Assembly: GCA_018823705.1 (NCBI GenBank)
Contig: JAHJHP010000039.1
Coordinates: 1 to 40,202 of the forward strand
Source of the DNA: Candidatus Omnitrophota bacterium
GTDB lineage: Bacteria > Omnitrophota > Gorgyraeia > 2-01-FULL-45-10
Length of the DNA: 40,202 nucleotides
Reading direction: 5' to 3'
Shown here: positions 8,954-36,381 of the stretch, piece by piece
Position numbering within the stretch: the stretch's first letter is position 1
Layout of the letters: the number at the start of each line of letters is the position of its first letter
The notes under the pieces: generated by a model
What the model saw: only the letters and a program-made list of their open reading frames with translations
Databases searched by the model: none
What the model was told of the DNA's origin: nothing
Program-made: the position numbers and the translations under genes

Positions 8954-8956
8954 CTT

Positions 8957-10764: not shown

Positions 10765-10770
10765 AAACGT

Positions 10771-10810: not shown

Positions 10811-10822
10811 CATGGGATGTGC

Positions 10823-11772: not shown

Positions 11773-11785
11773 AAAAGAGGGTAAC

Positions 11786-15385: not shown

Positions 15386-16316
15386 AAGGGTGCTTATTAC
15401 GGGCGGCGCGGGGTTCATCGGTTCACATCTATGCGACCTGTTTCTGGCGAAAGATCACCGCGTTATCTGCATGGATAACCTTATTACCGGAAAGATCGAG
15501 AATATCAGGCATCACCTGAAGAATAAGAACTTCAAGTTCGTTAAACATAATGTCTCCGAATACATAGATGTCAGGGGCAAGATAGACTACATACTGCATT
15601 TTGCCTCACCGGCCAGTCCCATAGATTACCTGAAATATCCGATACCGACGCTGAAAGTCGGCTCTCTCGGCACTCATAACGCGCTTGGCTTGGCTATGGC
15701 GAAAGGCGCCAGGTTCTTACTGGCCTCCACGAGCGAAGTCTACGGAGATCCTCTCGTTAATCCGCAGCCTGAGAGCTACTGGGGCAACGTTAATCCTGTC
15801 GGCCCGCGTGGTGTCTACGACGAAGCGAAGCGTTTCGCCGAGGCTATAACGATGGCGTATCATAGATATCATAAGCTCGATACCAGAATAGTGCGCATAT
15901 TCAATACTTACGGCGAACGGATGAGGGAAGAGGACGGCCGCGCAATCCCTAATTTTATCTCTCAGGCGCTCAATGATAGGCCGATAACCGTTTACGGCAG
16001 CGGTAAGCAGACGAGAAGCTTCTGTTATGTCTCTGACCTGGTCGATGGCTTGTATAAACTTCTGATGTCTAAAGAGAATGACCCGACTAATATCGGTAAT
16101 CCCAACGAGATGTCGCTCTTAGCACTAGCCGGGACGATAATAAAGCTTATGGGCTCGAAAAGTAAGATTGTATATAGGCCGCTTCCCGTCGATGACCCGA
16201 AAGTCAGGCGCCCAAATATAGCGAAAGCCAGGAAGATACTGAAGTGGGAGCCAAAGATCCGCCTTGAAGAAGGGTTGTCGAAGACGATAGAGTATTTCAA
16301 ATCTATTAAGGAATAA
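15372..16316 (+). CDS. uxs: UDP-glucuronate decarboxylase (UDP-xylose synthase)
   Basis: Converts UDP-glucuronate to UDP-xylose with tightly bound NAD+. The 314-residue extended SDR has [16 protein letters not shown] (about 7-22), [11 protein letters not shown], the UXS-typical [26 protein letters not shown], catalytic [15 protein letters not shown] and [16 protein letters not shown]. These match UXS rather than ArnA or 4-epimerases, and length is the soluble-bacterial norm. It uses the product of ugd at 7126-8421. First gene after a divergent promoter region and followed closely by the peptidase gene (5 nt), so it probably heads an operon. Confidence 0.94.
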
Positions 16317-21183: not shown

Positions 21184-22290
21184 GTGCATATATCGTTGTT
21201 GGATCTTAAGGGACAATACAGATCTATCAAACCGGAGATAGACGAAACTTTAAGGAAGGTCATAGAAAGACAGGACTTTATACTGGGTGAGGAGTGTCGA
21301 CTGTTTGAGGAGGAGATTACCCGGTATTGTGGTTCAAAATACGCTGTTGGCGTGGCATCCGGAACAGATGCGCTGATACTCGCTCTTAGAGCGTTAAATA
21401 TTGGACCGGGCGATGAAGTTATAACCACGTCATTTACGTTTTTTGCGACAGCTGAAGCGGTCTCCCTGGTTGGCGCAAAGCCGGTATTTGTCGATATTGA
21501 GCCGAAAACCTATAATATAGATACCGGATCGATAGAGAAGGCCATCACTCCTCGCACAAAGGCGATCATACCGGTCCATCTTTACGGGCAATGCGCGGAT
21601 ATGGATCCCATAATAGCCATTGCCAGGAAGCGTAAATTGAGGATCATTGAAGATACCGCGCAGGCCATAGGAGCTACGTATAAGGGCAGAAAGGCCGGTT
21701 CTATGGGGGATATAGGGACGCTCAGTTTCTTCCCCAGCAAGAATCTTGGCGCATTCGGTGACGCAGGCATGATAATCACCAATGATAAGGAGATCGCGGA
21801 TAAGATCAGGATGCTCAGAGTGCATGGCAGCACCCGGAGGTATATCCATTCAGAGATAGGAATGAACTCCCGTCTCGACAATCTGCAGGCGGCCGTATTG
21901 AGGGTAAAACTTAAGTATCTTGATAGCTGGCTGGAATCCAGGAGAAGACACGCGAAGTATTACTGTGAAAAATTAAAGGACTTACCACTGATCCTCCCGT
22001 ACGTGCCGGATCATAATGTGCATACTTATCACCAGTATGTGCTGCGTATTAAAGGCGATCTTGATACATTCATGAAATTCCTGGCCGATAGTGAAATCGA
22101 GGCGAGGACGTACTATCCGGTTCCTCTGCATCTCCAGGAATGCTACAGGCATTTGGGTTACAGGGATGGGAGTCTTAAAGAGGCCGAGCGGGCCGCCGGA
22201 GAGACATTGGCAATAGCCGTATATCCAGAGCTTACCATTGAAGAGCTCGATTATGTGATCAACAGGATCAATGCCTTTTTCGAAAGATAG
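21184..22290 (+). CDS. wbpE: DegT/DnrJ/EryC1/StrS aminotransferase (WbpE-like)
   Basis: PLP-dependent sugar aminotransferase transferring an amino group from glutamate to a 3- or 4-keto nucleotide sugar. The 368-residue product matches WbpE closely by eye: ISLLDLKGQYRSIKPEID, YAVGVASGTDALILAL, GDEVITTSFTFFATAEAVSLVGAKPVFVDI, PVHLYGQCADMDPI, and the catalytic Lys186 in SFFPSKNLGAFGDAG. WbpE makes the 3-amino group of UDP-Man(2NAc3NAc)A-type sugars, which fits the wbpA-like gene upstream, but WbpB and WbpD homologues are not in the window. It starts at GTG with AAAAGGAGA upstream and heads the operon after the promoter at 21075-21103. Confidence 0.9.
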   Translation: MHISLLDLKGQYRSIKPEIDETLRKVIERQDFILGEECRLFEEEITRYCGSKYAVGVASGTDALILALRALNIGPGDEVITTSFTFFATAEAVSLVGAKPVFVDIEPKTYNIDTGSIEKAITPRTKAIIPVHLYGQCADMDPIIAIARKRKLRIIEDTAQAIGATYKGRKAGSMGDIGTLSFFPSKNLGAFGDAGMIITNDKEIADKIRMLRVHGSTRRYIHSEIGMNSRLDNLQAAVLRVKLKYLDSWLESRRRHAKYYCEKLKDLPLILPYVPDHNVHTYHQYVLRIKGDLDTFMKFLADSEIEARTYYPVPLHLQECYRHLGYRDGSLKEAERAAGETLAIAVYPELTIEELDYVINRINAFFER

Positions 22291-22301: not shown

Positions 22302-22979
22302 ATGATGGCGCCCGGCAAACAAACCAAGAAAAGCCTCGCGATGAGAAGACTATGGAGCCACCATTTTATGCCGATCTATTTCCAGGACCGGTTTATGAAG
22401 GAAAATCTATCTTTTATAAAAGGCGAGCTGCTCGATATAGGCTGCGGGGATAAGCCGTACGAGGATCTCTTCAGGCCATTTGTTAAGAGCCATGTGGGAG
22501 CGGACTCATGCGATGAGGCGGACGTGAAGATGGACGCGCACAGCATCAAGTTCGCCGCTGAGGCCTTTGATACGGTACTTGCGACCTCTGTCATAGAACA
22601 TTGCGAGGAGCCCGCGAAGGTCATATCGGAGATGCGCAGGGTCCTCAAAAAGGGCGGCCATCTTGTTCTTACGGTGCCATACATAATGTTCATACATCTG
22701 GAGCCGAGAGATTTTTACCGGCTTACGAAATACGGCCTTCAATATCTACTAAGGGATTTTGATATAGTAAAGATGGAGACTATAGGAGGCTATTGGACTT
22801 CGACCGGATATCTGGGCCTGCAATATCTTGCCAGGTTTTTCGATAAATTGAAGATCAGGTTTCTGTTAGGGGTGTTTTGCGTATTTTTACAGCCGGTATT
22901 TCTTTTTCTTGATCACCTGGACCGGAAGAGCAGCGAAGTAATGACACAGGGCTACATGGCCATAGCAAGAAAGCGTTGA
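22302..22979 (+). CDS. Class I SAM-dependent methyltransferase
   Basis: A 225-residue methyltransferase with motif I LLDIGCGDKPYEDLF (about 45-59), FDTVLATSVIEHCEEPAKVISEMRRVLKKGGHLVLTVPY, as in the Methyltransf_11 family. A hydrophobic stretch near 190-210 (FLLGVFCVFLQPVFLFL) suggests membrane association. Similar proteins sit in polysaccharide loci as O- or N-methyltransferases of sugars or lipid intermediates. Substrate unknown. ATG 22302 follows AGGATG; ATG 22305 is equally possible. It ends 14 nt before the asparagine synthase start. Confidence 0.85.
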   Translation: MMAPGKQTKKSLAMRRLWSHHFMPIYFQDRFMKENLSFIKGELLDIGCGDKPYEDLFRPFVKSHVGADSCDEADVKMDAHSIKFAAEAFDTVLATSVIEHCEEPAKVISEMRRVLKKGGHLVLTVPYIMFIHLEPRDFYRLTKYGLQYLLRDFDIVKMETIGGYWTSTGYLGLQYLARFFDKLKIRFLLGVFCVFLQPVFLFLDHLDRKSSEVMTQGYMAIARKR

Positions 22980-22993
22980 AAGGTAAGCATATT

Positions 22994-24886
22994 ATGTGCG
23001 GCATAGCGGGTATCGTAAATCTGGATAAAGCGCCCATTCAGAAGGATGTTCTCGAAGCCATGGTGCGCTCCGAGCGTCATCGTGGCCCTGACGATAGCGG
23101 CTATTATGTGAACGGTAATGTCGGGCTCGGGCACGCGCGCCTTTCGATCATCGATCTTTCTAAGGACGCCAGCCAGCCGATGTGTAATGAAGGCTCGCGC
23201 CTCTTCATTGTCCATAACGGTGAGATATACAACTATATTGAGCTCCGGAAAGAGCTTGCCGGTCTTGGCCATGTCTTTAAGTCCAGAAGCGACACGGAAG
23301 TGATCCTCCATGCCTACGAAGAATGGGGAGAGGGCTGCCTTACGCGATTTAACGGTATGTGGGCCTTTGCCATTCTCGACCTGAATAAGAGAAAACTATT
23401 TTGCGCCAGAGACAGGTTCGGCGTAAAACCGTTTTACTACCATCATGATAACGGCGCGTTCGTATTTGCGTCGGAGATAAAGTCGTTATTATGCCATCCC
23501 AGGATAAGGCGCGAGCCAAACGATAACGCCGTATATAACTATCTGGCCTCCGGATATGGCTACATGGATATATCGGATGAGACGTTCTTTGAAGGTATCA
23601 GGCAGCTTAAGCCGGCGCACTATATGATAGTATCCTTAGCCGATGGGCGGATGACTCAAAAGAGGTATTGGGATCTCGATCCGCGCAATAAGGCGCGCGT
23701 TATTGACGAGGAATCGGTATATCGTAAGTTTTATGATCTCTTTGAAGATTCGATACGTCTGCGGCTGCGCAGTGACGTCCCCCTTGGCGTTTCCTTGAGC
23801 GGCGGGCTTGACTCTTCTTCGGTTGCATGCGTTGCCGTCCGTCTTATAAAGGGAAATACCCTGCAGACATTTTCGTCATGTTTCGACGAAGCGGAGTATG
23901 ATGAGAGAAAGTATATAGCGCAAGTTCTGGACATGACAAAAGCGGGCGCTAATTTCATATTTACCTCCCCGGAGAAACTGTTCGATGAGCTTGGACAGAT
24001 AGTGTGGCATCAGGAAGAGCCCTACAGCACTTTGAGTATATTTCCCCAGTGGTATGTGATGAAGCTTGCGCGTGAAAAAGGGGTTAAAGTCCTTTTGACC
24101 GGCCAGGGCGGAGATGAGGCTCTGGGAGGGTACCATAAGTATTATTTCTACCTCTTTGCGGACCTCTTATATTCAGGTAAATTTGGCGAAGCCGGCAATG
24201 AAATAAAACGATACGGAGAATTACAGGGTGACAGGACTCCGGTGGCAGGCAAAGTCCTGAAGATCATGGCATCCCATCTGGCGGGGCAGGGAGTTAAGAA
24301 TATGCTTAAGCGCGTCAGCCGACAAGCGGCGCCATCGTATCTGTCCAGGGAATTCGTCGGCCAAAACACGAACAGGGTATTTACGGAAAAGCGGTTTGGC
24401 AGCATACTGAACAATGATCTTTATAATGCGCTGAAGATATCGCCGCTGCCGTCGCTCCTGCATATCGATGACCGTTCAAGCATGGCCCATTCTGTCGAGA
24501 GCCGCGCGCCGCTCCTGGATTACCGTCTTATCGAATACGTCTTCTCACTCGGGCCGGAGTACAAGATACGGGACGGGATAACCAAATATCTTCTCAGGCG
24601 GTCGATGAAAGGAGTCCTTCCCGAAGACGTGAGGACGCGTACCGACAAGATGGGCTTCGCGACGCCGCTTGAAAGATGGTTCAGGACGAGACTGGAAGGG
24701 AAGGTTCGCGACATTATAAACTCAGATTCATTCCGGAAACGCTCCTATTTTGATCAGGCGGAGGTTGAGAAGAAATTGAATACTTTTATGCGCGGAAAAG
24801 GCAACCCGGGTGACAATAGCCATTTCACGATCTGGAGCTGGGTCAATCTCGAGCTCTGGATGAGAAAATTTATAGATGAAAACTGA
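22994..24886 (+). CDS. asnB: Asparagine synthase (glutamine-hydrolysing)-type amidotransferase
   Basis: A 630-residue AsnB-family protein. The N-terminal glutaminase domain starts MCGIAGIVNL with Cys2 as the Ntn nucleophile, HRGPDDSGYY, LSIIDLS and FIVHNGEIYNY. The synthase domain has the ATP pyrophosphatase loop SLSGGLDSSS (267-276), TGQGGDEALGGYHKY and DDRSSMAHSVESRAPLLDY. The start is ATG 22994, because Cys must be residue 2; the frame reaches back six codons. In O-antigen loci AsnB homologues such as WbpS amidate uronic acids; with ugd- and wbpA-type genes present that is a likely role here, though plain asparagine synthesis cannot be excluded. Overlaps the next gene by 11 nt. Confidence 0.93.
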   Translation: MCGIAGIVNLDKAPIQKDVLEAMVRSERHRGPDDSGYYVNGNVGLGHARLSIIDLSKDASQPMCNEGSRLFIVHNGEIYNYIELRKELAGLGHVFKSRSDTEVILHAYEEWGEGCLTRFNGMWAFAILDLNKRKLFCARDRFGVKPFYYHHDNGAFVFASEIKSLLCHPRIRREPNDNAVYNYLASGYGYMDISDETFFEGIRQLKPAHYMIVSLADGRMTQKRYWDLDPRNKARVIDEESVYRKFYDLFEDSIRLRLRSDVPLGVSLSGGLDSSSVACVAVRLIKGNTLQTFSSCFDEAEYDERKYIAQVLDMTKAGANFIFTSPEKLFDELGQIVWHQEEPYSTLSIFPQWYVMKLAREKGVKVLLTGQGGDEALGGYHKYYFYLFADLLYSGKFGEAGNEIKRYGELQGDRTPVAGKVLKIMASHLAGQGVKNMLKRVSRQAAPSYLSREFVGQNTNRVFTEKRFGSILNNDLYNALKISPLPSLLHIDDRSSMAHSVESRAPLLDYRLIEYVFSLGPEYKIRDGITKYLLRRSMKGVLPEDVRTRTDKMGFATPLERWFRTRLEGKVRDIINSDSFRKRSYFDQAEVEKKLNTFMRGKGNPGDNSHFTIWSWVNLELWMRKFIDEN

Positions 24887-25688
24887 TATCTATAGTCAAA
24901 AGGCATGGGTGGACAAATTCATAAGCCGTTGTCCGGCGGATGATTCCGACGCGGAGAGAGTCAGAAAGATAGTCGAAATGATCCCCGTGGACGTGTCGAC
25001 CGTGCTGGATGTCGGCATCGGAGGAGGGTATATCTACAAGGAACTCAGGAAAAAGAAAAGCTTGAGGTGCGCCGGTATAGATCTATCCCTTGAACTTGTA
25101 AAAAGGCTCGATGAGCCGGCCATATGTGTCGGGGATGCCGGGGAGATCCCTTTCAGAAGCGAACAGTTCGACCTTGTGCTGGCGGCCGATCTGCTGGAGC
25201 ATATAAAAGACGAATTTTTTAGGCAGACTGTTTCTGAGATCAAGAGGGTGTCCAGGAAGTACATACTGATCAACAGCCCCTATAAAGACGCCATTGACTG
25301 GCCGGTTGCCCTTTGCGATAGATGCAACGGAGAATTCAACGTTTACGGCCATATGCAGGTGATCGATACAGGCCTGATAAGGCGCGCGTTTCCGAAAGAG
25401 GAATTTGATGTTGTGATATCAGAGATCTTCGGAAGAAAGCGTAGCACGAGGCCGGCGCCGCTGGTATACATCGCGAGGAGATTCGGCAAAGTGTACAGCG
25501 AGGAAGGGGCCGTGTGCCCTTATTGCTTTAACATATCGATCAGGCCCCCGGACAGAAATTTCGCCGAAGTATTGATCGGACGGATGATGGCGGCGACATT
25601 CTTTTTTATGGATAGGGCCGTCCCATCGTTATTAAAACAGGGCAGCGAAATACGCGTTCTGTTGAGGAAAAAAGATGCGATTCAATAG
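24876..25688 (+). CDS. SAM methyltransferase with two CxxC pairs
   Basis: A 270-residue class I methyltransferase: VLDVGIGGGYIY (about 43-54) is motif I, VGDAGEIPFRSEQFDLVLAADLLEHI gives motifs II-III. Unlike its relatives here it has two cysteine pairs, CDRC (147-150, followed by a His at 159) and CPYC (214-217), a possible zinc-binding insertion in the second half. No known substrate. Start ATG overlaps asnB by 11 nt and the end overlaps the radical SAM gene by 14 nt, so all three are likely translated together, suggesting linked steps. Confidence 0.82.
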   Translation: MKTDIYSQKAWVDKFISRCPADDSDAERVRKIVEMIPVDVSTVLDVGIGGGYIYKELRKKKSLRCAGIDLSLELVKRLDEPAICVGDAGEIPFRSEQFDLVLAADLLEHIKDEFFRQTVSEIKRVSRKYILINSPYKDAIDWPVALCDRCNGEFNVYGHMQVIDTGLIRRAFPKEEFDVVISEIFGRKRSTRPAPLVYIARRFGKVYSEEGAVCPYCFNISIRPPDRNFAEVLIGRMMAATFFFMDRAVPSLLKQGSEIRVLLRKKDAIQ

Positions 25689-27156
25689 GGTATTACTGGT
25701 CCAGGCTAAATATGATTCGGCGTTTTCGAACGTTTTCCCTGCCGGCATAGGGTCTCTCTCCGAGACCCTGGATCACGAGGGCTTAACAAATGATGTTTTT
25801 GACCTGAACGTCAAAAGGAATACCGAAGGTATGCTTCACGACAAGATAAGGCATTTCAAGCCGGATCTCATCGGTTTCAGCATGATGAGCCTCAATTATA
25901 AGTATAACTATGGTGTGATAGAACGGCTTAAAGCTATCTTCAAAGATGTGAAGGTTGTGGTGGGCGGCGCTCACCTTTCCACAATAAGAAAAGAGGTCCT
26001 TGAGAATTGCAAGGCGATAGATTACGGCGTGACCCTGGAAGGAGAACATACGCTTTTGGAGCTCATGAAAGGCGACGAAGATGAGCCGGATATAAAGGGG
26101 TTGCTATACAGGGACGCCGGCAGAATAATCTATAACGGCGACAGGCCGTTTATCCAGGATCTCGACAGCCTGCCATATCCTCGATACAAGAAATTTAACA
26201 AGAGCGATTATTCGACCCTTGTGTCGCTCTTCTCTTCAAGGGGGTGCCCTTTTGAATGCACCTTCTGCCCTACAAAGCTTGCTATAGGGCGCAGGTTCTT
26301 TACTCGTTCCGCGAAAAGCGTAGTCGACGAAATGCAATACCACTACGATCTGGGCTACCGGGATTTCACTTTCAGGGATGATAACTTCACCCTTGTCCGT
26401 GACAGGGTTTATGAGATCTGCGATGAGATAGAGAAGAGGAGTTTTAGGGACATCTATCTTATGTGTGATGCAGGTGTGAGGGCGGATAAAGTTGACCGCG
26501 ATATCCTGAAAAGGATGAAAGATGTAGGGTTCAAAATGGTAGCCATAGGCGTAGAGGCGGGAAACGACAGGGTATTGAAGATTATAAAGAAGAGTGAGAC
26601 GATAGCCGAAATAGACAGGGCGATAAAGACAGCCTGCGAGCTGGACTATATAGTGGAGTTATTTCTTCTTATAGGCGCGCCCGGGGAGACCTGGAAAGAC
26701 TTTGAGGACACATTGAGCATCGCTACGCGCTACCCGGTAATGATAACCAGTTTCTATCATATACTCCCTTATCCGAACACAGAGCTGTTTGACTTCGTTA
26801 AAAGCAATAATTATCTCCTGAGAAGCTATGAGGAGTATCTTAACGATGGTTCGCAGAGAGTCAATACGCCCTTTTTCGCTACGCCCGAATTTTCTTACGA
26901 GCTTAGAAAGAAAGCGTTTAATTACGCGTACAAGGTGACATCGAAACACGTTAAAAAGGCCAAAATAGCTTATTCCAGGAAAAATGTGCATAAAAAATTG
27001 AGAGCGATGGGGATGGGCGACAAACTGGCATCCTTTTTTGCGAGGATATATACGGCGGATCTTCTCTTTGATCTGCTTTCCAGCAATAAGCTGCTGGCCA
27101 TATTGAAGAAAAATATGAAAAGGCGTGCCGCAGTAAAGAGCGCCGGGATTCAATAA
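25675..27156 (+). CDS. Cobalamin-type (B12-binding domain) radical SAM enzyme
   Basis: A 493-residue protein of the BchE/HpnP-like architecture: an N-terminal B12-binding-like Rossmann domain (about 1-155, with FPAGIGSLSETL and VVGGAHLS at 95-102) and a radical SAM TIM barrel with the cluster motif C191-P-F-E-C195-T-F-C198, FRDDNFTL and VAIGVEAGNDRVLK. The DxHxxG lower-ligand motif is missing, as in many class-B type enzymes where cobalamin binds His-off or not at all. The family does methyl transfers to unactivated carbon, ring formation and more. Located between methyltransferase and another radical SAM gene. Function in the glycan locus is unknown. Confidence 0.88.
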   Translation: MRFNRVLLVQAKYDSAFSNVFPAGIGSLSETLDHEGLTNDVFDLNVKRNTEGMLHDKIRHFKPDLIGFSMMSLNYKYNYGVIERLKAIFKDVKVVVGGAHLSTIRKEVLENCKAIDYGVTLEGEHTLLELMKGDEDEPDIKGLLYRDAGRIIYNGDRPFIQDLDSLPYPRYKKFNKSDYSTLVSLFSSRGCPFECTFCPTKLAIGRRFFTRSAKSVVDEMQYHYDLGYRDFTFRDDNFTLVRDRVYEICDEIEKRSFRDIYLMCDAGVRADKVDRDILKRMKDVGFKMVAIGVEAGNDRVLKIIKKSETIAEIDRAIKTACELDYIVELFLLIGAPGETWKDFEDTLSIATRYPVMITSFYHILPYPNTELFDFVKSNNYLLRSYEEYLNDGSQRVNTPFFATPEFSYELRKKAFNYAYKVTSKHVKKAKIAYSRKNVHKKLRAMGMGDKLASFFARIYTADLLFDLLSSNKLLAILKKNMKRRAAVKSAGIQ

Positions 27157-27158
27157 CC

Positions 27159-28232
27159 ATGAATATGAAAGCCCTGAAAGAGCTGTCGGGAATAATTTTA
27201 CAGGACCATACATTCGGCCAAAAGCTGAATTATTGCAAGTATCTCTTTTTCCCCAAAAAGGAAGTATTGGATTACGACCCCGTTACGATATCGATAGTGG
27301 CGACCGGCCGTTGTACTCTGTCATGCGATATGTGTCCGACTCACTCGCGCCTGACGTCAAAAGAGTATGAGCATGCTCAGGCCATTGTCAGGGACGTTGA
27401 CCTCGATACATTTAAAAAAATGATCGACAGGTTCGGCAGGGCGACCACCATCCACATAATAGGCTCAGGCGAACCGCTTCTGAATAAGGATTTATTTGAA
27501 ATGGTCGAATACGCGGCCGGCAAGCGGATAACGGTGAAGATGTTCTCGAACGGGACGACCATAGAGCAGAATATCGACAAGCTGCTTGCCTCGAGGCTGG
27601 ACGGGATAACGGTAAGCCTGAACGGCCAGAATGCCGGGGAGTTCTCGAGGATGACAGGCATGCCGGCGGAGGCGTATCGCGGAATTTATGATGCTACAAA
27701 GCGGCTCATCGATAAGAGAAATAAGATAGGAGCCAGGCTTAAGGTGAAGTTGTCGTTTATAATAGACAGGTTTAATTACAGGTCCATGCCCGAAATGATA
27801 GAAGTTGGCCTGGCCCTCGGCGCGGACCATATATTTTTATGTAATTTTTTACACTCGCCGTATGACGGCCTTCGCGCGCATGAGCGTGTGCTTATGATAG
27901 AAGGGGAAGTGGCCCGGGAACTAAAAACCATCATCGGCAAGTATTCGGCGGCAGTATCCAGGAAAGTGACATGGCCTGTGCCGGTCGACTCTCGGCAGCG
28001 CTTCAATAAGTGCTCGACGCATTTTTCGCAGATCCGGTTTGACGGCGATGGCAATGTCTCAAGTTGTTCGATGATGCTCCTTAATATGGCCGGCCATGGC
28101 CATTATGAAGAAGAGGATGTCTGGAATAACGATTTCTTCAGAAAGATGAGAAGAACGTTCCTCGATGGCAGCGGAAAGGATATCCCGGAGCCGTGTAAAG
28201 CATGTCCTGATAATAAAGGCGTTTCCATATAA
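27159..28232 (+). CDS. Radical SAM enzyme with SPASM-like C-terminal cysteines
   Basis: A 357-residue radical SAM protein with no B12 domain. The 4Fe-4S motif is C52-T-L-S-C56-D-M-C59 in VATGRCTLSCDMCPTHSRL, followed by HIIGSGEPLLNKDLF (the GGEP-like motif). C285, C303, C346 and C349 (NVSSCSMMLLN, CKACPDN) near the C terminus look like a SPASM/twitch auxiliary cluster. Such enzymes modify peptides, or sugars as in aminoglycoside dehydrogenation. It starts 2 nt after the previous gene; ATG 27165 is an alternative start. The substrate is unknown; the co-transcribed glycan genes suggest a sugar or lipid-linked intermediate. Confidence 0.86.
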   Translation: MNMKALKELSGIILQDHTFGQKLNYCKYLFFPKKEVLDYDPVTISIVATGRCTLSCDMCPTHSRLTSKEYEHAQAIVRDVDLDTFKKMIDRFGRATTIHIIGSGEPLLNKDLFEMVEYAAGKRITVKMFSNGTTIEQNIDKLLASRLDGITVSLNGQNAGEFSRMTGMPAEAYRGIYDATKRLIDKRNKIGARLKVKLSFIIDRFNYRSMPEMIEVGLALGADHIFLCNFLHSPYDGLRAHERVLMIEGEVARELKTIIGKYSAAVSRKVTWPVPVDSRQRFNKCSTHFSQIRFDGDGNVSSCSMMLLNMAGHGHYEEEDVWNNDFFRKMRRTFLDGSGKDIPEPCKACPDNKGVSI

Positions 28233-28243
28233 AAGAGAGGGTT

Positions 28244-29713
28244 ATGATGTCCGCACCTGATAAGAATAAAAGAGTGATCATTGTGAGGGTCGAGAGCGAT
28301 ATTGTGCTCCATCCACTGGGGACGCTCTATATGGGTAACGAGCTCAAGAAGGCCGGTTACGATGTCAGGGTCTATAATATATTCAAACATGAGATAGCCC
28401 GGACCGTAGAGGCGATCGTGGAAGCTAAGCCGCTTTTTGCCGGTTTTTCCACTATGACGGGATTGCAGACGAAATACACCCATCAGATGTCGGAGGCTGT
28501 AAGGGCCCGCGACAAAGATATTAAGATCGTATGGGGCGGCGTCCATCCGACCCTGCTTCCGGAAGATTGCCTGAAGGAAAATTGCGTCGATATTGTGGTA
28601 ATGGGCGAAGGAGAGGAGATCATCGTCGCGTTGGCGGATTGTCTTTTAAGCGGCGGTGACCTGAAAGGCGTCAGAGGGATAGGATACAAAAGCGCGGGCA
28701 AGCTCGTTATCGACTCACAGCGCCAGTTTATTAAGGATCTCGATAAATATGAGCCCGACTGGAGCCTTCTGGACGATTTTGAGAAATGCGTGACGACGCT
28801 TCCGGATGGTATGCGGCAGATGGATTTCGTCGCTTCAAGAGGGTGTCCTTATAATTGCGCTTTCTGTTATAACCTCAAGTTCAACGATAGGCGCTGGCGC
28901 AAGCATTCTTTCGAATACGTGATAAACAAGATAGGGTATCTCAGGCGCGAGCATAATATACGGGCGATCCATTTTCACGATGACAACTTCTTTGTGGATA
29001 TGGAACGGGCGTTCCGCATCCTGGAAGCGTTAAAGAATATGGACGTTATAGCCACCTCATGCATGATACGCCTTGAGGTTATAAGCGATGATATAGTTAA
29101 TCGGCTAAGGGCGCTCGGTGTCAGGCGGATATTTGTAGGTGTCGAATCGGGTTCGGACAGGGTATTGAAGATGATTAACAAGGAGTTGACGCGTGAGACG
29201 ATACTTGAGAAATTCAGGCTCCTGTCGAAGTTCAGGGATATCTCCGTAACCGCGGCATGTATCATAGGATTTCCTACGGAGACCTGGAATGACATCTATA
29301 AGACGATAGACCTCGGGGTAACGATCTCCGAAATATTCCCTGATGTCGTGGTAACTTTCCAGACTTTTATACCGTATCCCGGCTCGCGACTCTACGAGGT
29401 CGCCCTCGAGAACGGTTTTTCACTCCCCCGGCATATGTCAGAGTATGACACGTTCGATACCTATAAGGGCGAGATGAATCTGACGTGGCTGCCATGGGCC
29501 GATGAGAAGACCAAGACCATATTCTATAGAATCGATAAGTACGGGAAGCTCCTGACCCACTCGAAGGGCTCCAGCCCGTTGAGAACGGCCGGCAAGGAGC
29601 TCTTCTACAGGCTGAGTAAGGCGCGCCTCAGAAACAGGTTCTTCGCCTTCCCTTGGGAGATATCCGTACTGCATAAGTTTAACAGATACTATAATCCGAA
29701 ATGCCCGATATGA
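28244..29713 (+). CDS. Cobalamin-type radical SAM enzyme, second
   Basis: A 489-residue B12-domain radical SAM protein, paralogous to the product of 25675-27156. The B12-like domain (about 10-150) has HPLGTLYMGNELKKAGYD and VWGGVHPTLLPEDC (97-109); the cluster motif is C201-P-Y-N-C205-A-F-C208, then FHDDNFFVD and IFVGVESGSDRVLKMI. DxHxxG is absent. Shared FxDDNF and VxxGVExGxDRVLK stretches show the relationship, but the N-terminal domains differ, so they may act on different substrates. The gene ends in a 4-nt ATGA overlap with the glycosyltransferase. Putative C- or P-methylation or rearrangement chemistry. Confidence 0.88.
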   Translation: MMSAPDKNKRVIIVRVESDIVLHPLGTLYMGNELKKAGYDVRVYNIFKHEIARTVEAIVEAKPLFAGFSTMTGLQTKYTHQMSEAVRARDKDIKIVWGGVHPTLLPEDCLKENCVDIVVMGEGEEIIVALADCLLSGGDLKGVRGIGYKSAGKLVIDSQRQFIKDLDKYEPDWSLLDDFEKCVTTLPDGMRQMDFVASRGCPYNCAFCYNLKFNDRRWRKHSFEYVINKIGYLRREHNIRAIHFHDDNFFVDMERAFRILEALKNMDVIATSCMIRLEVISDDIVNRLRALGVRRIFVGVESGSDRVLKMINKELTRETILEKFRLLSKFRDISVTAACIIGFPTETWNDIYKTIDLGVTISEIFPDVVVTFQTFIPYPGSRLYEVALENGFSLPRHMSEYDTFDTYKGEMNLTWLPWADEKTKTIFYRIDKYGKLLTHSKGSSPLRTAGKELFYRLSKARLRNRFFAFPWEISVLHKFNRYYNPKCPI

Positions 29714-31068
29714 GTTACGGTAAAAGAAAGGTCCTGATCATTTCTTATGTCTGGCCGCCGATGGAGGGCGTAGGCCTGATGAGGGCGATGAAGTTTGTCA
29801 AATATCTCCCTGAAAACGGCTGGGAGCCTATAGTATTGACGATAAAAGCTGAAAAGTCTGCCGCGCAGGCAGGATCGATCCCATCGTGCGATACGAAGGT
29901 ATTCAGAAGCGATTACAGGGATGTAGCGGGTGAAATCAAGAGATTATTCTCTGTAAAAAGAGCGCGGTGCGGGAACGATGGTCATAATGAAGCCGCGCGA
30001 AAAGGATGTGAAAAGAGCAGGCGATCTCCATCGTTTATTCGTGAAATGGTCCTGATCCCCGATGATCAGATAGGGTGGTACAAGTTCGCGGTAGATGAGG
30101 GCAGGAAGATCGTAGGGAGAGAGGGCGTAGACCTGATAATAAGTACCTCTCCTCCGGAGACGGCCCATTTAATCGGGCGTGCCTTAAAAAAGGCATTCAA
30201 TATACCGTGGGTAGCGGATCTCAGAGACCTATGGTCCGAAGATCATTTCAGGGAGAGGCCTTTTATTAAAAAGTTAGTGCTGCGTCGCATCGAAAAGACG
30301 GTGCTTAAAGACGCGGACAGGGTGGTGACCGTTTCGGAGCCGTGGGCAGAGACGCTGAGGCTTTCATTAGGCGCCGGCAAGAATAAGGTCGAGGTTATTG
30401 AGAATGGTTTTGACGAGGAAGATTTCGGTAAAGCCGTTTATGGCGGAAATAAGAAATTTACGATATCGTATACAGGAAAATTGCATGCCGACAAACAGCC
30501 GGTGGCCGGCCTATTTAAAATTTTAAAAGACCTCATAGGTGAAGGGCGGATAGACCGGGACAGAATACAGGTTGATTTTTATGTGATGGGATATGCCAAA
30601 CCGGATATCAGTGAGATGGCCCGATCTTATGGTTTAAACGGAGTCGTTTTTGAGCATGGCATGGTCGATTATAAGAGATCCCTGGAGATCCAGAGAGTAT
30701 CCGACGTATTGCTTTTTATACAATGGCAGGGCAGAGGCGGCGATGGATGGTATTCGGCGAAGATTTACGATTATATCGGCTCGGGAAGGCCTATTCTGGC
30801 GTTGGCCGGGAAAAGAGGCATCGTCGCGGACCTTATATCGGAAACATCCAGCGGGATCATGGCGGAGGATGAGGTCAGCCTCCGGGAAGCCCTGCTGAAG
30901 TTATACTGTGAACATGTTGAAAATGGTTTTGTTAAATATGCCGGGAACGAAGCCAATATTGCCAACCATTCACGGAAGATGAGGGCCAGAAAACTGGCCG
31001 CGCTCCTGGATTCGGTCATAACGAAGGGCTTAGGTGACGGCTCCGTCCGGAAGGTGAAAGATGAATGA
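29710..31068 (+). CDS. GT4-like glycosyltransferase
   Basis: A GT-B fold glycosyltransferase of about 452 residues. It starts KRKVLIISYVWPPMEGVGLMRAMKFVKYLPENGWEPIVLT, the typical N-domain of GT4 enzymes, with LIISTSPPETAHLIG, WVADLRDLWSE and VTVSEPWAETL in the middle and VEVIENGFDEEDF followed by FTISYTGKLHADKQP at the start of the C-domain. ATG 29710 gives the 4-nt ATGA overlap seen at other junctions; ATG 29701 is three codons earlier in the same frame. It would add a sugar to the lipid-linked repeat unit at the cytosolic face. Donor and linkage unknown. Overlaps the next gene by 8 nt. Confidence 0.85.
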   Translation: MSYGKRKVLIISYVWPPMEGVGLMRAMKFVKYLPENGWEPIVLTIKAEKSAAQAGSIPSCDTKVFRSDYRDVAGEIKRLFSVKRARCGNDGHNEAARKGCEKSRRSPSFIREMVLIPDDQIGWYKFAVDEGRKIVGREGVDLIISTSPPETAHLIGRALKKAFNIPWVADLRDLWSEDHFRERPFIKKLVLRRIEKTVLKDADRVVTVSEPWAETLRLSLGAGKNKVEVIENGFDEEDFGKAVYGGNKKFTISYTGKLHADKQPVAGLFKILKDLIGEGRIDRDRIQVDFYVMGYAKPDISEMARSYGLNGVVFEHGMVDYKRSLEIQRVSDVLLFIQWQGRGGDGWYSAKIYDYIGSGRPILALAGKRGIVADLISETSSGIMAEDEVSLREALLKLYCEHVENGFVKYAGNEANIANHSRKMRARKLAALLDSVITKGLGDGSVRKVKDE

Positions 31069-31768
31069 CTTGTTGTGGAGATTAATAAAGAGCTTTTCCT
31101 ATCGCACCGCTGAAGCGGCTTACAGGATATTTCCAAAAAAAGCGACGCTGACGTTTTATTGTTACATGACATATATTATGCGCGCCCTGACATGGAGACT
31201 CGCATGCAAATATTATGGGCGATCGATGGCAGAGTACCGGGGCGATGTACCGGATTTTGTTCTATCGCACATTATGCCGGGTGATATCGTGATCGATGTG
31301 GGCTGCGCGGAAGGCAACTTGACGCGTCTGGTGGCAAAAAAAGCGAAAAAAGTGGTCGCTGTAGATATAGACAAGGATTATCTGACAGCCATAGATAAGA
31401 CCGAGGAAGGGTTGCGGAACGCGACATTTATTTATGGCGATATTGCAGGCCTGAAGTTCGACGAGACCTTCGACGTCGCTATCCTTGTTCACACTATAGA
31501 GCATATGGATAACGCGAATACTATATTGAATAAGATCTCCGGGATTGCCCGGAAGATCATAGTCGAAACGCCGGATCAGGAGTCGGATTGGCTGACCAAG
31601 ACGCTTCTGGACCTTGGGATAGAGGAGCGCGGCGACGATAAGCATGTTAAGTTATACGACGGAGCCTCTTTGAAGGAATCTCTTGAGCAGAACGGCTGGT
31701 CGGACGTAGTTATTTCTAAAGGTGTCGGCGCGGTGCGCGCTGTGGCGGCTTCGAAATCGTTCAAATGA
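31061..31768 (+). CDS. Class I SAM-dependent methyltransferase
   Basis: A 235-residue methyltransferase with VIDVGCAEGNLTRLVAKKAKKVVAVDID (motif I and the acidic ribose-binding residue), DIAGLKFDETFDVAILVHTIEHMDN and IVETPDQESDWLT. An N-terminal stretch with hydrophobic residues may interact with membrane. It starts 8 nt inside the end of the GT4 gene behind GGAAGGTG and ends in an ATGA overlap with the deacetylase-like gene. Probably decorates a sugar or carrier; specificity not visible. Confidence 0.85.
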   Translation: MNDLLWRLIKSFSYRTAEAAYRIFPKKATLTFYCYMTYIMRALTWRLACKYYGRSMAEYRGDVPDFVLSHIMPGDIVIDVGCAEGNLTRLVAKKAKKVVAVDIDKDYLTAIDKTEEGLRNATFIYGDIAGLKFDETFDVAILVHTIEHMDNANTILNKISGIARKIIVETPDQESDWLTKTLLDLGIEERGDDKHVKLYDGASLKESLEQNGWSDVVISKGVGAVRAVAASKSFK

Positions 31769-32658
31769 AGTATAAACACAGGTTGAGGGATATGCTCTCG
31801 GAAAAACTTATCAGGATAGCGTGGTATTTGACGAATATGAACTTGCCGGAAAGGCGCGCCCTTTCATACGTAAATTTCTGCATACATACGGAAGTCATAT
31901 ACGAAGACGGGACATATCGGGCGCTTTTGAAATTCTCCAGGGATTTTAAAGAGCTTACCGGCAAGAAGATCACCGTGTGCGTCAGCACCCCCATCTGTCC
32001 TCTGGTGAGAAAAGGCCTTGTCGATAACGGGTTGTCCGAGAAGGCATTCAGCGAGAGGGTTTCGGAGATGGCCAGGCATGCCGACGTCGGTTACCACGGC
32101 CATTATTATCCGGAAGGGACGACGACATTTGACCATATGCGCAGATCCGACTATAACAAAGATCTTGTGGTAAAGCAGATCACCAGGGAGATGACATGGT
32201 TCAGGAATATAGGGATATCCCCTAAGACATATATAGCCGGATGCTGGTTCATGATGAAAGAGATGGTGCTGGAACTGGAACGATGCGGCATAGAAGTGGA
32301 TGCGTCCATAAGGAGAGGCAAGGGCGATACCTTTGGAGGAGTTTATCTGGATATTTCCAGGGTGCCGCAATATGGCAGGCCTTTTATACTACCCCCCTCA
32401 AAGAATATAGTCGAGATACAGAGTATATTCGGGCCGGTAATGGCTCCCGCGATCATGAAGGGCCACCTATCACGATATATGAGGTCCGATATAGGGTCTG
32501 TCCAGTCGTTCATATTTCCGCTTCACGACTGGGATATACCGCGCTACTACCGCAATATATGGGCAAACGTCAGGGAGCTGCAGCGGCATAAAGACAAGAT
32601 AGCGTGGGCTAACGTCAATGAGATGCGTGGTATGTACCTGAATGGCAAGATCGTATGA
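31765..32658 (+). CDS. Polysaccharide deacetylase-like (NodB-fold) protein
   Basis: A 297-residue protein with features of the CE4/NodB family: FCIHTEVIYEDGTY near the N terminus (where the family has the catalytic DxD or similar), ARHADVGYHGHYYPEG resembling the His-rich zinc motif, CGIEVDASIRRG and a closing SFIFPLHDWDIPRYY with His and Asp. The canonical first Asp pair is not clear (HTE instead), so the catalytic centre is diverged and it may act on unusual substrates or not be a hydrolase. No signal peptide, so a cytosolic role, for instance deacetylating a lipid-linked or nucleotide-linked HexNAc. Coupled by ATGA overlaps on both sides. Confidence 0.65.
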   Translation: MKYKHRLRDMLSEKLIRIAWYLTNMNLPERRALSYVNFCIHTEVIYEDGTYRALLKFSRDFKELTGKKITVCVSTPICPLVRKGLVDNGLSEKAFSERVSEMARHADVGYHGHYYPEGTTTFDHMRRSDYNKDLVVKQITREMTWFRNIGISPKTYIAGCWFMMKEMVLELERCGIEVDASIRRGKGDTFGGVYLDISRVPQYGRPFILPPSKNIVEIQSIFGPVMAPAIMKGHLSRYMRSDIGSVQSFIFPLHDWDIPRYYRNIWANVRELQRHKDKIAWANVNEMRGMYLNGKIV

Positions 32659-33584
32659 GCGTAAAGAAGAGCGGTTGGATCGATGAGGCCCTGCGCGAGA
32701 CGGAGACGGTCGCGCCGGATCTCCAGCCCTGGCCTGACTATTTTAAATTTAAGGCGGAGGAGCTGAGAACGATATTGAATTTCTGCGAATTCAGCGATGC
32801 CGGTTCGATCTTAGAGGTAGGCTGCGGAAATGGGTTTACTTCATATCTTTTGTCAAAAAAGGCCGGTCGAGTGGAAGCTTTCGATCTGCCTCGCCAGGAC
32901 TCCGCAAGCCACTCCGTGGGCATACGCATGGCCGGAAGACTTGCAGTCAGGATGAGAGCCGGGAACATGAATGTCACGGGTGGATCCGTTACCGATATGC
33001 CCTATAGAGACGGTTCGTTCGACGTAGTATTCTCGCAATATATGCTTCATTACGTTAAGGACAAAAAGAGGGCATTGGGTGAGATGCGGAGAGTTTTGAC
33101 CGACAAAGGTGTCATGGTGACCATTGTGCCGAATTTCACGGAGCGGATTTTTGTTCCACTCATAAAATATGAATATATTATCAGCAGACTTATAGCTAAG
33201 ATGACAGGCCAGGGAGCTTTCGCGGCAGCCGGTGAAGCCACGGGCCACTCGGCCGATACCTCGACCCCCTGGCAATCCCGTAAAATATCCCGGATATTGA
33301 ACGACTATATTTTATTAAGGCCGGACGGCGCCTACCGCAATTATTTTGAAGAGATGATTAGCCATTGGCCGGGTACATGGATACGATTACTCGAGGAGAG
33401 CGGATTCAAAGTGCGAGGTGTATTCTCAACACAGATGATGCCCCTGGGTCTTTTCGCATTCTTAGGAAGCTCCGGGACAAGATTATTATCCGGAAAGATC
33501 CATAGCCTGACAAGAGCCATCGGCGGACTGCCGATACTTAACAGTATGGGTTATTCACTCGGTATTATTGCGGTCAAGAATTAA
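32655..33584 (+). CDS. Class I SAM-dependent methyltransferase
   Basis: A 309-residue methyltransferase: ILEVGCGNGFTSYLLSKKAGRVEAFDLPRQ is motif I, then GGSVTDMPYRDGSFDVVFSQYMLHYVKDKKRALGEMRRVL, a Methyltransf_11-type pattern. A C-terminal hydrophobic region (GLFAFLGSSGTRLL ... GLPILNSMGYSLGIIAV) may touch the membrane. Start by ATGA overlap with the deacetylase-like gene. Fourth methyltransferase of the operon, so the final glycan is probably multiply methylated. Confidence 0.85.
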   Translation: MSVKKSGWIDEALRETETVAPDLQPWPDYFKFKAEELRTILNFCEFSDAGSILEVGCGNGFTSYLLSKKAGRVEAFDLPRQDSASHSVGIRMAGRLAVRMRAGNMNVTGGSVTDMPYRDGSFDVVFSQYMLHYVKDKKRALGEMRRVLTDKGVMVTIVPNFTERIFVPLIKYEYIISRLIAKMTGQGAFAAAGEATGHSADTSTPWQSRKISRILNDYILLRPDGAYRNYFEEMISHWPGTWIRLLEESGFKVRGVFSTQMMPLGLFAFLGSSGTRLLSGKIHSLTRAIGGLPILNSMGYSLGIIAVKN

Positions 33585-33589: not shown

Positions 33590-34897
33590 ATGAAGACACT
33601 GATAAAGATCCTGGATATTTTGGGGTTCCTGTTTTTTGGGGCCGTATTCGCTTGTCCGATAATTTGCGCGGCCATAATCTCGTCATGCATTACCAGAAGA
33701 CGCCGCGCCGGAAACGGAGTACGTGAGCTTTCCTTTGCCGTATTCGATCTCATAAGCAATAAGTACCCCAGCATGCTTGAGGATGCGCTCCTGGACGGTT
33801 ATTTAGATAGGCACTATTATATCTATCTTGATTTTAGCCATTCAAACGACAGATTCGAAAATATCGGGGATGATATTTTTTTTTACAGCATAGCTGCTCA
33901 TCCCGGAAACTGCATATATAAGGCAGGTTTCCATAAAGTGAGCATGCTTATAACGGAAGCAAGGGCCCTTTTAAGGGGCTATCTGCTGGCATTGAGGAAT
34001 GATATTGATCTGATAAAGGCTCACGATCCCCATCTTTTAGGATTAAACGGCTTGATAATTTCCAGGCTGCTCGGGTTACCCTGCGTTTTGCATCTGAATT
34101 CGGACTTTGATATGAAATACCGCGGCACCGGGAAGATATCATCTCCGATCCTGATCTCAAGAGGGGTGGAACGGCTCTTCGAATCGACGATCATGCGTTT
34201 TTACGACCTTATAGTGGCAGACAGAAAATTTTACAGCCGATCCAGGCATTTTTCCAGGGACAGTATAAAAAAGTACAGGGCCTTCGGAGTGCGCGTCGAT
34301 AGACTGCACTATGCCGATCCTGCTTCGAGGACAGATCTAAGGGCAAGCCTTGGATTGGACGGCGCCAGGATCATCTTGTATGTGGGGCGGCTTCATCCCG
34401 TCAAGTATCCCGAGGATGCTGTAAAAGCCTTCAGCATAATAAAAAAGAGCGTTCCTAACGCGTACTTGCTTATAGCCGGCGCGGGCGTTTTGCGGGATAC
34501 CCTGGAACGGATGGCAGGTGAGTACGGGCTAAAAGACAGCGTCCGGTTTCTCGGACAAAAAAAATATGAAGAGCTGGTAGATCTATTATATACCGCGGAT
34601 GTGTTACTGGCTCCCCACGGTGGTGTCACGCTGGTCGAAGCGGCCCTTGCCTCAACGCCGGCCGTGACCTATGATTTCGACTGGCATTCCGAATTTCTGA
34701 AGGATGGAGAGATGGGCTATATAGCGCCGTTCCGTGATTTCAAGAGCATGGCGCAAAGAGCGATCGATATATTGACCGATGAAGCGGTGAGGGTCAGGAT
34801 GAGCGAGCTGTGCAGGAAGGTCGCGGTTTCCGGCTGCTCGAGAGAAAGATCTATGGAAAACGAGAAGAAAATATACAGGGAGCTTATCGGGGCATGA
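33590..34897 (+). CDS. GT4 family glycosyltransferase with N-terminal membrane segment
   Basis: A 435-residue GT-B glycosyltransferase. The N-terminal segment (about 10-33, ILGFLFFGAVFACPIICAAIISS) is hydrophobic and followed by RRRR, so a membrane anchor is likely. The C-domain has IILYVGRLHPVKYPEDAVKAF, LLIAGAGVLRDTL, VRFLGQKKYEELVDLLYTADVLLAP and the nucleotide-contacting Glu in HGGVTLVEAALASTPAV. This is the usual signature of GT4 enzymes. A sugar-transfer step in the repeat unit is inferred. 5 nt from the previous gene and 4 nt overlap with the flippase. Confidence 0.88.
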   Translation: MKTLIKILDILGFLFFGAVFACPIICAAIISSCITRRRRAGNGVRELSFAVFDLISNKYPSMLEDALLDGYLDRHYYIYLDFSHSNDRFENIGDDIFFYSIAAHPGNCIYKAGFHKVSMLITEARALLRGYLLALRNDIDLIKAHDPHLLGLNGLIISRLLGLPCVLHLNSDFDMKYRGTGKISSPILISRGVERLFESTIMRFYDLIVADRKFYSRSRHFSRDSIKKYRAFGVRVDRLHYADPASRTDLRASLGLDGARIILYVGRLHPVKYPEDAVKAFSIIKKSVPNAYLLIAGAGVLRDTLERMAGEYGLKDSVRFLGQKKYEELVDLLYTADVLLAPHGGVTLVEAALASTPAVTYDFDWHSEFLKDGEMGYIAPFRDFKSMAQRAIDILTDEAVRVRMSELCRKVAVSGCSRERSMENEKKIYRELIGA

Positions 34898-36381
34898 AGA
34901 AGATACTGAAGGTCATGTCCATATTGGGTATCGCTACATGCGTCAAGCTCATCCTGGGATTTGTTCGAGCCAAATTTCTTGCCTGTCAGCTTGGGCCTGC
35001 AGGTATGGGGCTTGTGGGGCAGGCGACGATGTATTGGGTATTTGCCATACAGATCTGCTCGCTGAATATAGGCATAGGTATTACCAAGGAGATATCGGAA
35101 GGCATCGCGCGCAACGATAAAGAGCGGATCCGTCACACCATCAATACGGCGTGGACACTCCAGCTTCTTGCCTCGATCATCTTCATCGCGGCGGTCCTTC
35201 CGTTCTCGGCTTATCTGTCGAAGTTCGTCTTTGCGGATCAGAAGTATTGGCTGTATTTTGCCGGCATTACCGTAGTAACGCCGTTTGCTGTCTACCTGAC
35301 CGGGGCGGCAGATCCGGTATTGTACGGGTTCAGAAAAGTTGCGGATGTTTCAAGGCTGATTATCATGTATACGCTGATCGGTATATGCCTTCTTCTGGTG
35401 CTCGTCTATTTTTACAAAATCGAAGGAATGATGATACAGATCATGGTCATTTCGGTCGTCGGTTTCATCCTGTCGTACCATTATATCCGGAAGTGCACGA
35501 CGATCAACCCGCGGCCTGATCCGGGCCTTTTCAGGAAGCCTCAGACCCGCGCGATCGCCTCAAACTTATTTCAGTATGGTTTCATATCGTTTATCCCGGC
35601 CAATATCGGCATGTTCACTATGATTTATATACGCGGACTCTTTATGAGGCAATTTGGGGTCGAAGCGAACGGGTATTTTCAGGTCGCTTACGCGGTCAGC
35701 GCGTATTATCTGCCGTTTGTGACGAACGCCCTCTGGGGCCATTTCTATCCGGAGATGTGTTCCCTGAAAACAAATGAGGATATTAACCGCGAGCTGAACC
35801 AGTTTATACGATTCGCTATCCTTGTTTCGACGGCTATCGCGGCAGGCTCTATAATATTCAGGAAATACCTTATCCTGATATTGTTCTCCAGTAAATTTAT
35901 GGACGCCTACGACCTGCTGGGAATCCAGGCTGTCGGTGATATCTTTCTTGTGCTCTTCTCCACGTTCAGCACGGCGCTTATGGCAAGACGGAAATTTGCG
36001 GGGGTTATCGGGATATCAGCGATCGGATATAATGCGTTGTTACTGGCGATTTACTTCGTCGTGAGGGGCATGCCTGGCATCGACTACCGTAGCCTTAATG
36101 TGGCCCTGGTGCTCGCGAACGTTGTGATCGTAGCGGCGCACATGCTCTACGCGCGTTTTGATACGGGGTTCCTTCTGACAGGAAAGAACGTTTCGCTTAT
36201 AGTTAAGACAGGTATATTTGTCACTATAATATTTTTATTACCGGACGGCAGCCTGGCGCTCGTGGCTGGTAAGATCGCCCTGTCAGCTGTATGGCTCGCG
36301 CTCTCTATCACGAAAAATGAGGCGCAGCGCGGCCTGGATATAATCCGTTCTTTTATCCGGAGGAAACAAGCTCATGCATAA
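34894..36381 (+). CDS. Wzx-type polysaccharide flippase (MOP superfamily)
   Basis: A 495-residue polytopic protein with 12-14 hydrophobic segments. The start KVMSILGIATCVKLILGFVRAKFLACQLGPAGMGLVGQA is the classic RfbX/Wzx beginning and TAADPVLYG-like AADPVLYGFRKV, QYGFISFIPANIG and YFQVAYAVSAYYLPFVTNAL follow. It should flip undecaprenyl-linked repeat units across the inner membrane, which places the locus in the Wzx/Wzy class. The start is ATG 34894 in the ATGA overlap; the frame is open 28 codons further up, where it lies in the GT4 gene. After it comes an 84-nt gap. Confidence 0.9.
   Translation: MKKILKVMSILGIATCVKLILGFVRAKFLACQLGPAGMGLVGQATMYWVFAIQICSLNIGIGITKEISEGIARNDKERIRHTINTAWTLQLLASIIFIAAVLPFSAYLSKFVFADQKYWLYFAGITVVTPFAVYLTGAADPVLYGFRKVADVSRLIIMYTLIGICLLLVLVYFYKIEGMMIQIMVISVVGFILSYHYIRKCTTINPRPDPGLFRKPQTRAIASNLFQYGFISFIPANIGMFTMIYIRGLFMRQFGVEANGYFQVAYAVSAYYLPFVTNALWGHFYPEMCSLKTNEDINRELNQFIRFAILVSTAIAAGSIIFRKYLILILFSSKFMDAYDLLGIQAVGDIFLVLFSTFSTALMARRKFAGVIGISAIGYNALLLAIYFVVRGMPGIDYRSLNVALVLANVVIVAAHMLYARFDTGFLLTGKNVSLIVKTGIFVTIIFLLPDGSLALVAGKIALSAVWLALSITKNEAQRGLDIIRSFIRRKQAHA

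Follow-up and report, generated by a model that had tools for sequence, protein, structure and literature searches.

The 40,202-nucleotide window analyzed here is the entire contig G000:C32 of a metagenome-assembled genome of Candidatus Omnitrophota (G000; 1.70 Mb, 99% complete). At positions 24876-29713, it carries a methyltransferase gene (MT270) followed by three consecutive genes for oxygen-sensitive radical S-adenosylmethionine (SAM) enzymes (RS1, RS2, and RS3). This block probably serves to tailor sugars within a Wzx-dependent locus for a surface polysaccharide, whose sugars would be modified by radical chemistry. Gene order and its conservation, intact cluster motifs, the glycan context, and the fusion of a fourth radical SAM protein (RS4) to a GT4 family glycosyltransferase in two other genomes were observed directly. 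A role in glycan tailoring is well supported, and the individual substrates and reactions are those that we infer.

An open reading frame (ORF) check located MT270, RS1, RS2, and RS3 with junctions of -14 bp (MT270/RS1), +2 bp (RS1/RS2), and +11 bp (RS2/RS3). The genes from the aminotransferase gene degT (21184) to the contig end lay on one strand and overlapped or nearly touched; 99.4% of 21184-40202 was coding, and the sole gap above 30 bp was one of 84 bp after wzx. The CxxxCxxC motif was intact in all four radical SAM proteins. RS1, RS3, and RS4 each carried a B12-binding and a Radical_SAM domain above the Pfam cut-off, and both the motif and the N-terminal domain placed them in class B, the cobalamin-dependent radical SAM enzymes. 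The ORFs, domains, and motifs bore out the original prediction of a methyltransferase and three consecutive radical SAM genes, two of them B12-type, with a further B12-type gene at 38770; this last gene runs off the contig end. The CxxC motif claimed for the methyltransferase was also found: MT270 has two CxxC pairs, both invariant in three orthologues, and these would probably form a zinc knuckle.

Conservation was determined in eight loci with readable flanks, from seven Omnitrophota genomes and one Nitrospinae genome. The order AsnB ... RS2 ... GT4a, in which AsnB is a glutamine-dependent amidotransferase and GT4a a glycosyltransferase, was kept in all eight loci and in both phyla, and RS1 and RS3 orthologues were both present in four loci and both absent in the other four. 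Genomes G007 (same genus), G022, and G271 (another family) had the order DegT-AsnB-[MT270]-RS1-RS2-RS3-...-GT4a; G019 and G023 kept DegT, AsnB, RS2, GT4a, GT4b, Wzx, GT2, and RS4 and had no RS1 or RS3 orthologues. A further Omnitrophota locus (L070, RS2 47% identity) read DegT-x-AsnB-MT270-RS2-GT4a-...-GT4b-Wzx-GT2-PMT_C and had an RS4-like protein (29%). The Nitrospinae locus (L071) contained two PF02397 initiating sugar transferases upstream of AsnB-RS2-GT4a, together with a B12-type radical SAM gene, a methyltransferase, GT4b, and Wzx. A fragment of the locus was found in Candidatus Thiomargarita nelsonii, and in G026, RS3 lay directly 3' of DegT within a UGD2, SDR_A, SDR_B, DegT series. 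Synteny with AsnB, DegT, GT4a, GT4b, Wzx, and GT2 spanned genera and families, and for AsnB, GT4a, GT4b, and Wzx it reached the second phylum; Wzx and AsnB, the two genes for which co-occurrence had been in question, stayed with RS2 at each of these levels.

RS2 was present in 4 of 285 genomes of the phylum sample and in 7 of 384 of the class sample, and was absent from two genomes of the same genus, a patchy distribution as expected for polysaccharide types. When kinship was ignored, RS2 co-occurred in the phylum sample with RS3 (Fisher p 2e-5) and RS4 (1e-5). With this co-occurrence and the conserved synteny, the proposal that each gene is a random passenger failed. A binning error is improbable as the chief cause: several independent assemblies show this order, each within a single contig. 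Additional RS2 copies were also found. The Nitrospinae locus contained a second, shortened RS2 paralogue in two pieces (L071:16753-17254), perhaps a decaying duplicate, and the G023 metagenome-assembled genome had two distinct RS2 loci, each on its own contig (L055 and L056; identity to the window, 54% and about 50%), which may reflect two types of polysaccharide or a bin of mixed origin.

RS4 had no stop before the contig end, and the contig ends inside or just after this gene. In G019 and G023, the RS4 frame stayed open into a following GT4 glycosyltransferase sequence, giving about 900 residues in total, and in G007, G017, and G112, the same GT4 was the next gene after RS4, so that RS4 was fused to or adjoined GT4 in all five genomes with a readable downstream side. 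The GT4 partner was sought in the source assembly and not found, and has probably been lost to a gap in the assembly. A PMT_C gene lay upstream of RS4 in the window and in G007, G019, G017, and G112; G023 had no PMT_C match upstream of RS4, with GT2 there instead. In G093, an RS1 relative was flanked by these two gene types (PMT_C and GT4), and in G007, a transglutaminase-like protein was encoded between a B12-type radical SAM gene and the GT4 partner of RS4 (L076:12924-13667, minus strand).

In the contiguous genome of the sister species G007, the block lay within a one-strand glycan locus of about 106 kb. Seventeen of the 33 radical SAM genes of that genome shared one strand at C6:78.6-162.9 kb (hypergeometric p about 1e-15). 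The 79 genes tested at C6 71-164 kb included 17 radical SAM genes, 14 of these B12-binding, as well as 13 methyltransferase, 9 GT2, several GT4, 4 cytidylyltransferase, and 4 PMT genes. Another contig of the source genome, C94, carried nine radical SAM genes and matched the G007 locus at its far end (about 67-89%) before diverging. The far end matched by C94 and the window end were conserved and the C94 middle diverged, which is the pattern of conserved ends and variable middle seen in Wzx loci. The window and C94, two unjoined contigs, probably belong to one such locus. The G007 locus also encoded a fusion protein with a cytidylyltransferase domain and a class I methyltransferase (L076:9445-10797, minus strand).

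The Wzx-type glycan operon of the original prediction was confirmed, as a Wzx flippase, glycosyltransferases, and nucleotide-sugar genes were found together in the window, a combination expected of a Wzx-dependent polysaccharide locus. Upstream of the block, the nucleotide-sugar set comprised RmlABCD, UGD1, a UDP-HexNAc-type 6-dehydrogenase, a WbpP/WbgU-type epimerase, a UDP-xylose synthase, and a QdtB/WbpE-type aminotransferase (DegT). DegT lay directly upstream of AsnB in G007, G022, G023, and G271 and near AsnB in G019 and L070; MT225 had no match between DegT and AsnB in the orthologous loci. AsnB homologues of O-antigen loci amidate uronic acids. The AsnB of the window scored 470 bits against the amidotransferase model of XrtA/PEP-CTERM exopolysaccharide systems (TIGR03108), below the cut-off of 817. 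It keeps the N-terminal glutaminase cysteine (MCGIAG), and its real start is probably an internal ATG because this motif is present.

RS2 had been described as a radical SAM protein with SPASM-like cysteines. The SPASM motif includes CX9-15GX4C and has seven cysteines for two auxiliary clusters (PMC6231123), and a shortened domain of this type is named Twitch (PMC6231123, PMC9012708). In RS2, the Radical_SAM domain was above the Pfam cut-off and SPASM just below it (20.5 vs 21.5 bits). The CxxxCxxC motif and C285, C303, C346, and C349 were invariant in eight homologues, and the first auxiliary pair in the window reads C-X12-G-X4-C, followed by CxxC (C-X12-G-X4-C...CxxC). Of the seven SPASM cysteines, RS2 has the first four and is missing the later ones; it was therefore rejected as a SPASM enzyme and is, by its sequence, a Twitch enzyme with one predicted four-cysteine auxiliary cluster. 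The Twitch domain of BtrN holds one cluster with four ligands and is thought to be the electron acceptor in a two-electron oxidation (PMC6231123, PMC9012708). RS2 matched BtrN marginally (E 0.37), in the C-terminal region and with the last cysteine pair only. In the AlphaFold model of RS2 (predicted local distance difference test score, pLDDT, 78), the fold matches included BlsE at rank 1, SuiB at rank 2, and DesII at rank 4, and BlsE and DesII were also among its weak PDB profile matches. These folds favor a sugar or sugar-nucleoside substrate, with a peptide as a less likely candidate.

The three B12-binding enzymes were only 26-29% identical to one another, and recent tandem duplication was rejected as their origin. 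Each matched many models of B12-type radical SAM enzymes, all far under the cut-off. The structure model of RS3 (pLDDT 75) resembled MgmA, TsrM, OxsB, CysS, AprD4, and TokK. Most of these are C-methyltransferases (MgmA, TsrM, CysS, and TokK); OxsB contracts a ring and AprD4 dehydrates, and because both are among the matches, methylation by the B12 enzymes would be a first guess only. An AprD4-like dehydration or deoxygenation in glycan tailoring in place of C-methylation, with a vestigial B12 domain, is a variant of the sugar-tailoring interpretation; it has an appreciable though minor chance, and the confidences of the two overlap. AprD4 was the top or second PDB profile match for RS3 and RS1 and gave RS3 its highest query TM-scores (0.63-0.64). 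However, the AprD4 model NF033070 scored 64-101 bits against a cut-off of 500 (RS1, 79; RS3, 64), no AprD3-like reductase was found beside RS1 or RS3, whose neighbors are MT270, RS2, and GT4a, the B12-binding domain was above its cut-off in all three enzymes, and a cobalamin riboswitch was present in the genome. C-methylation by the B12 enzymes appears more likely than dehydration, and RS2 may catalyze an oxidation or epimerization.

An action of the B12-type enzymes on hopanoid, acyl, or polyprenyl chains, as in HpnJ, HpnR, or ladderane-type systems and including the polyprenyl carrier of the glycan, is unlikely. Lipid carriers had already been proposed as substrates in the original prediction, and among NCBIfam models RS1 scored best with HpnJ (TIGR03471; 161 bits), which was also among the top models for RS3 and RS4, but the scores of the three (132-169 bits vs a cut-off of 578) reflect a shared superfamily only, the genes are placed among sugar genes, and in two genomes RS4 forms one protein with a GT4 glycosyltransferase. 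Support for sugars as the substrates comes from this fusion, from the nucleotide-sugar genes on the flanks, and from the RS2 fold matches; of the new sugar or lipid-carrier chemistry that had been suggested, the sugar part has this support and the specific reaction is proposed only.

A maturation system resembling those of ribosomally synthesized and post-translationally modified peptides, in which radical SAM/SPASM proteins, a lasso-cyclase-like AsnB, and a papain-type protease would modify a small peptide, has a still smaller chance. AsnB scored 418 bits with a lasso-peptide cyclase model, below its cut-off of 525, SuiB ranked high among the RS2 folds, and a papain-family protease is encoded at 16322. 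Such a cluster was rejected, since a precursor peptide has no coding space in the block and AsnB keeps its glutaminase cysteine, which is expected of an amidotransferase rather than a lasso cyclase. Among the other RS2 loci with a readable upstream part, G007 alone had the protease, RS2 is without the full SPASM motif, and the constant neighbors are glycosyltransferases and Wzx. Least probable of all is that the genes are conserved yet functionally separate, gathered by chance in the glycan loci of radical SAM-rich Omnitrophota (41 such genes in the 1.7-Mb source genome; RS1-like proteins, E <= 1e-80, at varied places in 21 of 285 genomes), as this is contradicted by the order common to families and phyla, the co-variation of RS1 with RS3, the co-occurrence of RS2 with RS3 and RS4, and the RS4-GT4 fusion in two genomes.

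Three radical SAM genes in a row arose in 2.5% of random placements, a point for gathering by chance; the run alone is weak evidence, and the conservation of the block is for this reason the stronger evidence. Several observations weigh against the sugar-tailoring interpretation. No radical SAM protein of the window reached the curated NCBIfam cut-off of any characterized family, so that the reactions cannot be read from homology. The RS2 model had poor confidence around the loop that binds the SAM cluster, its TM-scores to the fold matches were only about 0.6, and its fold list also held the peptide enzymes SuiB and EpeE, with similar scores for SuiB. Neither an initiating sugar transferase nor a Wzy polymerase was identified in the window.

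In the proposed pathway, the nucleotide-sugar genes would make rhamnose-, xylose-, amino-, and uronic acid-type sugars, DegT would add an amino group to a sugar, and AsnB would probably form an amide on a uronic acid carboxyl. RS2, with its predicted auxiliary cluster, may abstract hydrogen from a sugar carbon and then oxidize or invert the carbinol. RS1, RS3, and RS4 may use cobalamin and SAM for the methylation or other remodeling of unactivated sugar carbons, and MT270, MT235, and MT309 would add O- or N-methyl groups. Tailoring would act on nucleotide- or lipid-linked sugars ahead of Wzx export, with RS4 and its partner glycosyltransferase acting on the same, probably lipid-linked, glycan.

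Known systems share parts of this arrangement. GenK and GenD1 are class B radical SAM C-methyltransferases of gentamicin, which act with cobalamin on sugar carbons of a glycosylated compound, in a pathway that also employs aminotransferases and an N-methyltransferase (PMC5461906); the likeness noted is one of enzyme class, and theirs is an antibiotic pathway without surface polysaccharide genes. The diol dehydratase AprD4 (PDB 6fd2) likewise acts on an aminoglycoside sugar, but RS1 and RS3 are far under its family cut-off and have no adjoining AprD3-like partner. The Twitch dehydrogenase BtrN (PDB 4m7t) has a four-cysteine auxiliary cluster and a pathway with a DegT-type aminotransferase, whereas RS2 exceeds it in length by about 100 residues. 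BlsE (cytosylglucuronate decarboxylase) and DesII (TDP-sugar deaminase) have sugar-bearing substrates; their identity to RS2 is <=20%, and their reactions are not transferable. The short name of TIGR04295, B12_rSAM_oligo (NCBIfam), suggests an oligosaccharide link, but RS3 (69 bits) and RS4 (100 bits) fell below its cut-off of 400. Loci of the Wzx/Wzy type for O-antigen or capsule, with WbpO/WbpP-type genes and amidotransferases resembling AsnB, share the nucleotide-sugar genes, glycosyltransferases, Wzx, conserved ends, and variable middle; they differ from the sister-species locus with its 17 radical SAM genes and from the radical SAM-GT4 fusion.

The enzyme classes, radical sugar chemistry, which has been characterized mainly in antibiotic pathways, and the "oligo" family TIGR04295 are already known, and the claim of an undescribed biosynthetic system is narrowed by them. 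What may be new is the conserved radical SAM-rich surface glycan locus and the radical SAM-GT4 fusion; no description of this fusion, or of radical SAM-rich loci for O-antigen, exopolysaccharide, or Omnitrophota, was found in the literature searched, an absence that is weak evidence. The data suggest that these Omnitrophota subject their sugars to modifications that have yet to be described for polysaccharides of the cell surface. We tentatively propose that Omnitrophota and a few bacteria of other phyla have surface polysaccharides extensively remodeled by radical chemistry, with loci of about 100 kb holding some 17 radical SAM enzymes, most of them cobalamin-dependent and some joined to glycosyltransferases, that would perform C-methylation, epimerization, or deoxygenation during chain building. 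To our knowledge, no surface glycan made by such remodeling has been described. If true, a radical SAM surface glycan locus shared across phyla would add to the chemistry known from bacterial envelopes and yield numerous new candidates for C-methylases, epimerases, and dehydrogenases of sugars. It would also connect cobalamin use in an uncultured phylum with the cell surface. The RS4-GT4 fusion is a direct, testable link between a B12-type radical SAM enzyme and a glycosyltransferase.

Table. Genes of the polysaccharide locus in the window, with the basis of each assignment
Gene	Description	Position	Strand	Basis and conservation
UGD1	UDP-glucose/GDP-mannose dehydrogenase family	7126..8421	+	Pfam; kept in G007, G019
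RmlC, RmlA, RmlB, RmlD	dTDP-rhamnose-type nucleotide-sugar genes	8474..11704	+	Pfam; kept in G007, G019
UGD2	UDP-ManNAc/GalNAc-type (UDP-HexNAc-type) 6-dehydrogenase	11741..13090	+	Nearest solved chains UDP-ManNAcA dehydrogenase, Cap5O, NDP-GalNAcA dehydrogenase
SDR_A	WbpP/WbgU-type UDP-sugar 4-epimerase	13087..14109	+	Nearest solved chains include WbgU, WbpP, E about 1e-65
SDR_B	UDP-glucuronate decarboxylase (UDP-xylose synthase)	15372..16316	+	UXS1, E about 1e-104
DegT	Aminotransferase, scyllo-inosose/QdtB/WbpE type	21184..22290	+	Profile matches, solved chains, synteny
MT225	Class I methyltransferase	22302..22979	+	Pfam
AsnB	AsnB-type glutamine-dependent amidotransferase	22976..24886	+	Pfam, NCBIfam; upstream of RS2 in 8/8 loci
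MT270	Class I SAM methyltransferase, two invariant CxxC pairs	24876..25688	+	Pfam, orthologue alignment
RS1	B12-binding radical SAM	25675..27156	+	Pfam, NCBIfam, PDB profile matches
RS2	Twitch-type radical SAM, core gene of the block	27159..28232	+	Pfam, homologue cysteines, fold matches
RS3	B12-binding radical SAM	28244..29713	+	Pfam, PDB profile, structure model
GT4a	Glycosyltransferase	29701..31068	+	Pfam; downstream of RS2 in every locus
MT235	Class I methyltransferase	31061..31768	+	Pfam
x297		31765..32658	+	No Pfam match; relative in Nitrospinae locus
MT309	Class I methyltransferase	32655..33584	+	Pfam; homologue directly 3' of RS3 in G026, G038
GT4b	Glycosyltransferase	33590..34897	+	Pfam
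Wzx	Wzx-type flippase	34810..36381	+	Polysacc_synt above cut-off; WzxE model 97 bits
GT2	Glycosyltransferase	36466..37446	+	Pfam
PMT_C	GT-C-type membrane glycosyltransferase	37436..38773	+	Pfam; upstream of RS4
RS4	B12-binding radical SAM, cut off at contig end	38770..40202	+	Pfam; orthologues fused to or before GT4

The true start of Wzx probably lies downstream of 34810, and x297 is perhaps a divergent deacetylase. No Rfam RNA was found in the window. The papain-family cysteine protease gene (16322-17122) is located in the sugar operon. Three short ORFs at 18386-19762, one of them PMT_2-like, had no match at that place in G007; all three were found in G023, and they are for this reason probably real genes and not a frameshift artifact. 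A 723-residue protein with weak LptC/LptD_N similarity (4940-7111) adjoins UGD1 and is kept in G007 and G019.

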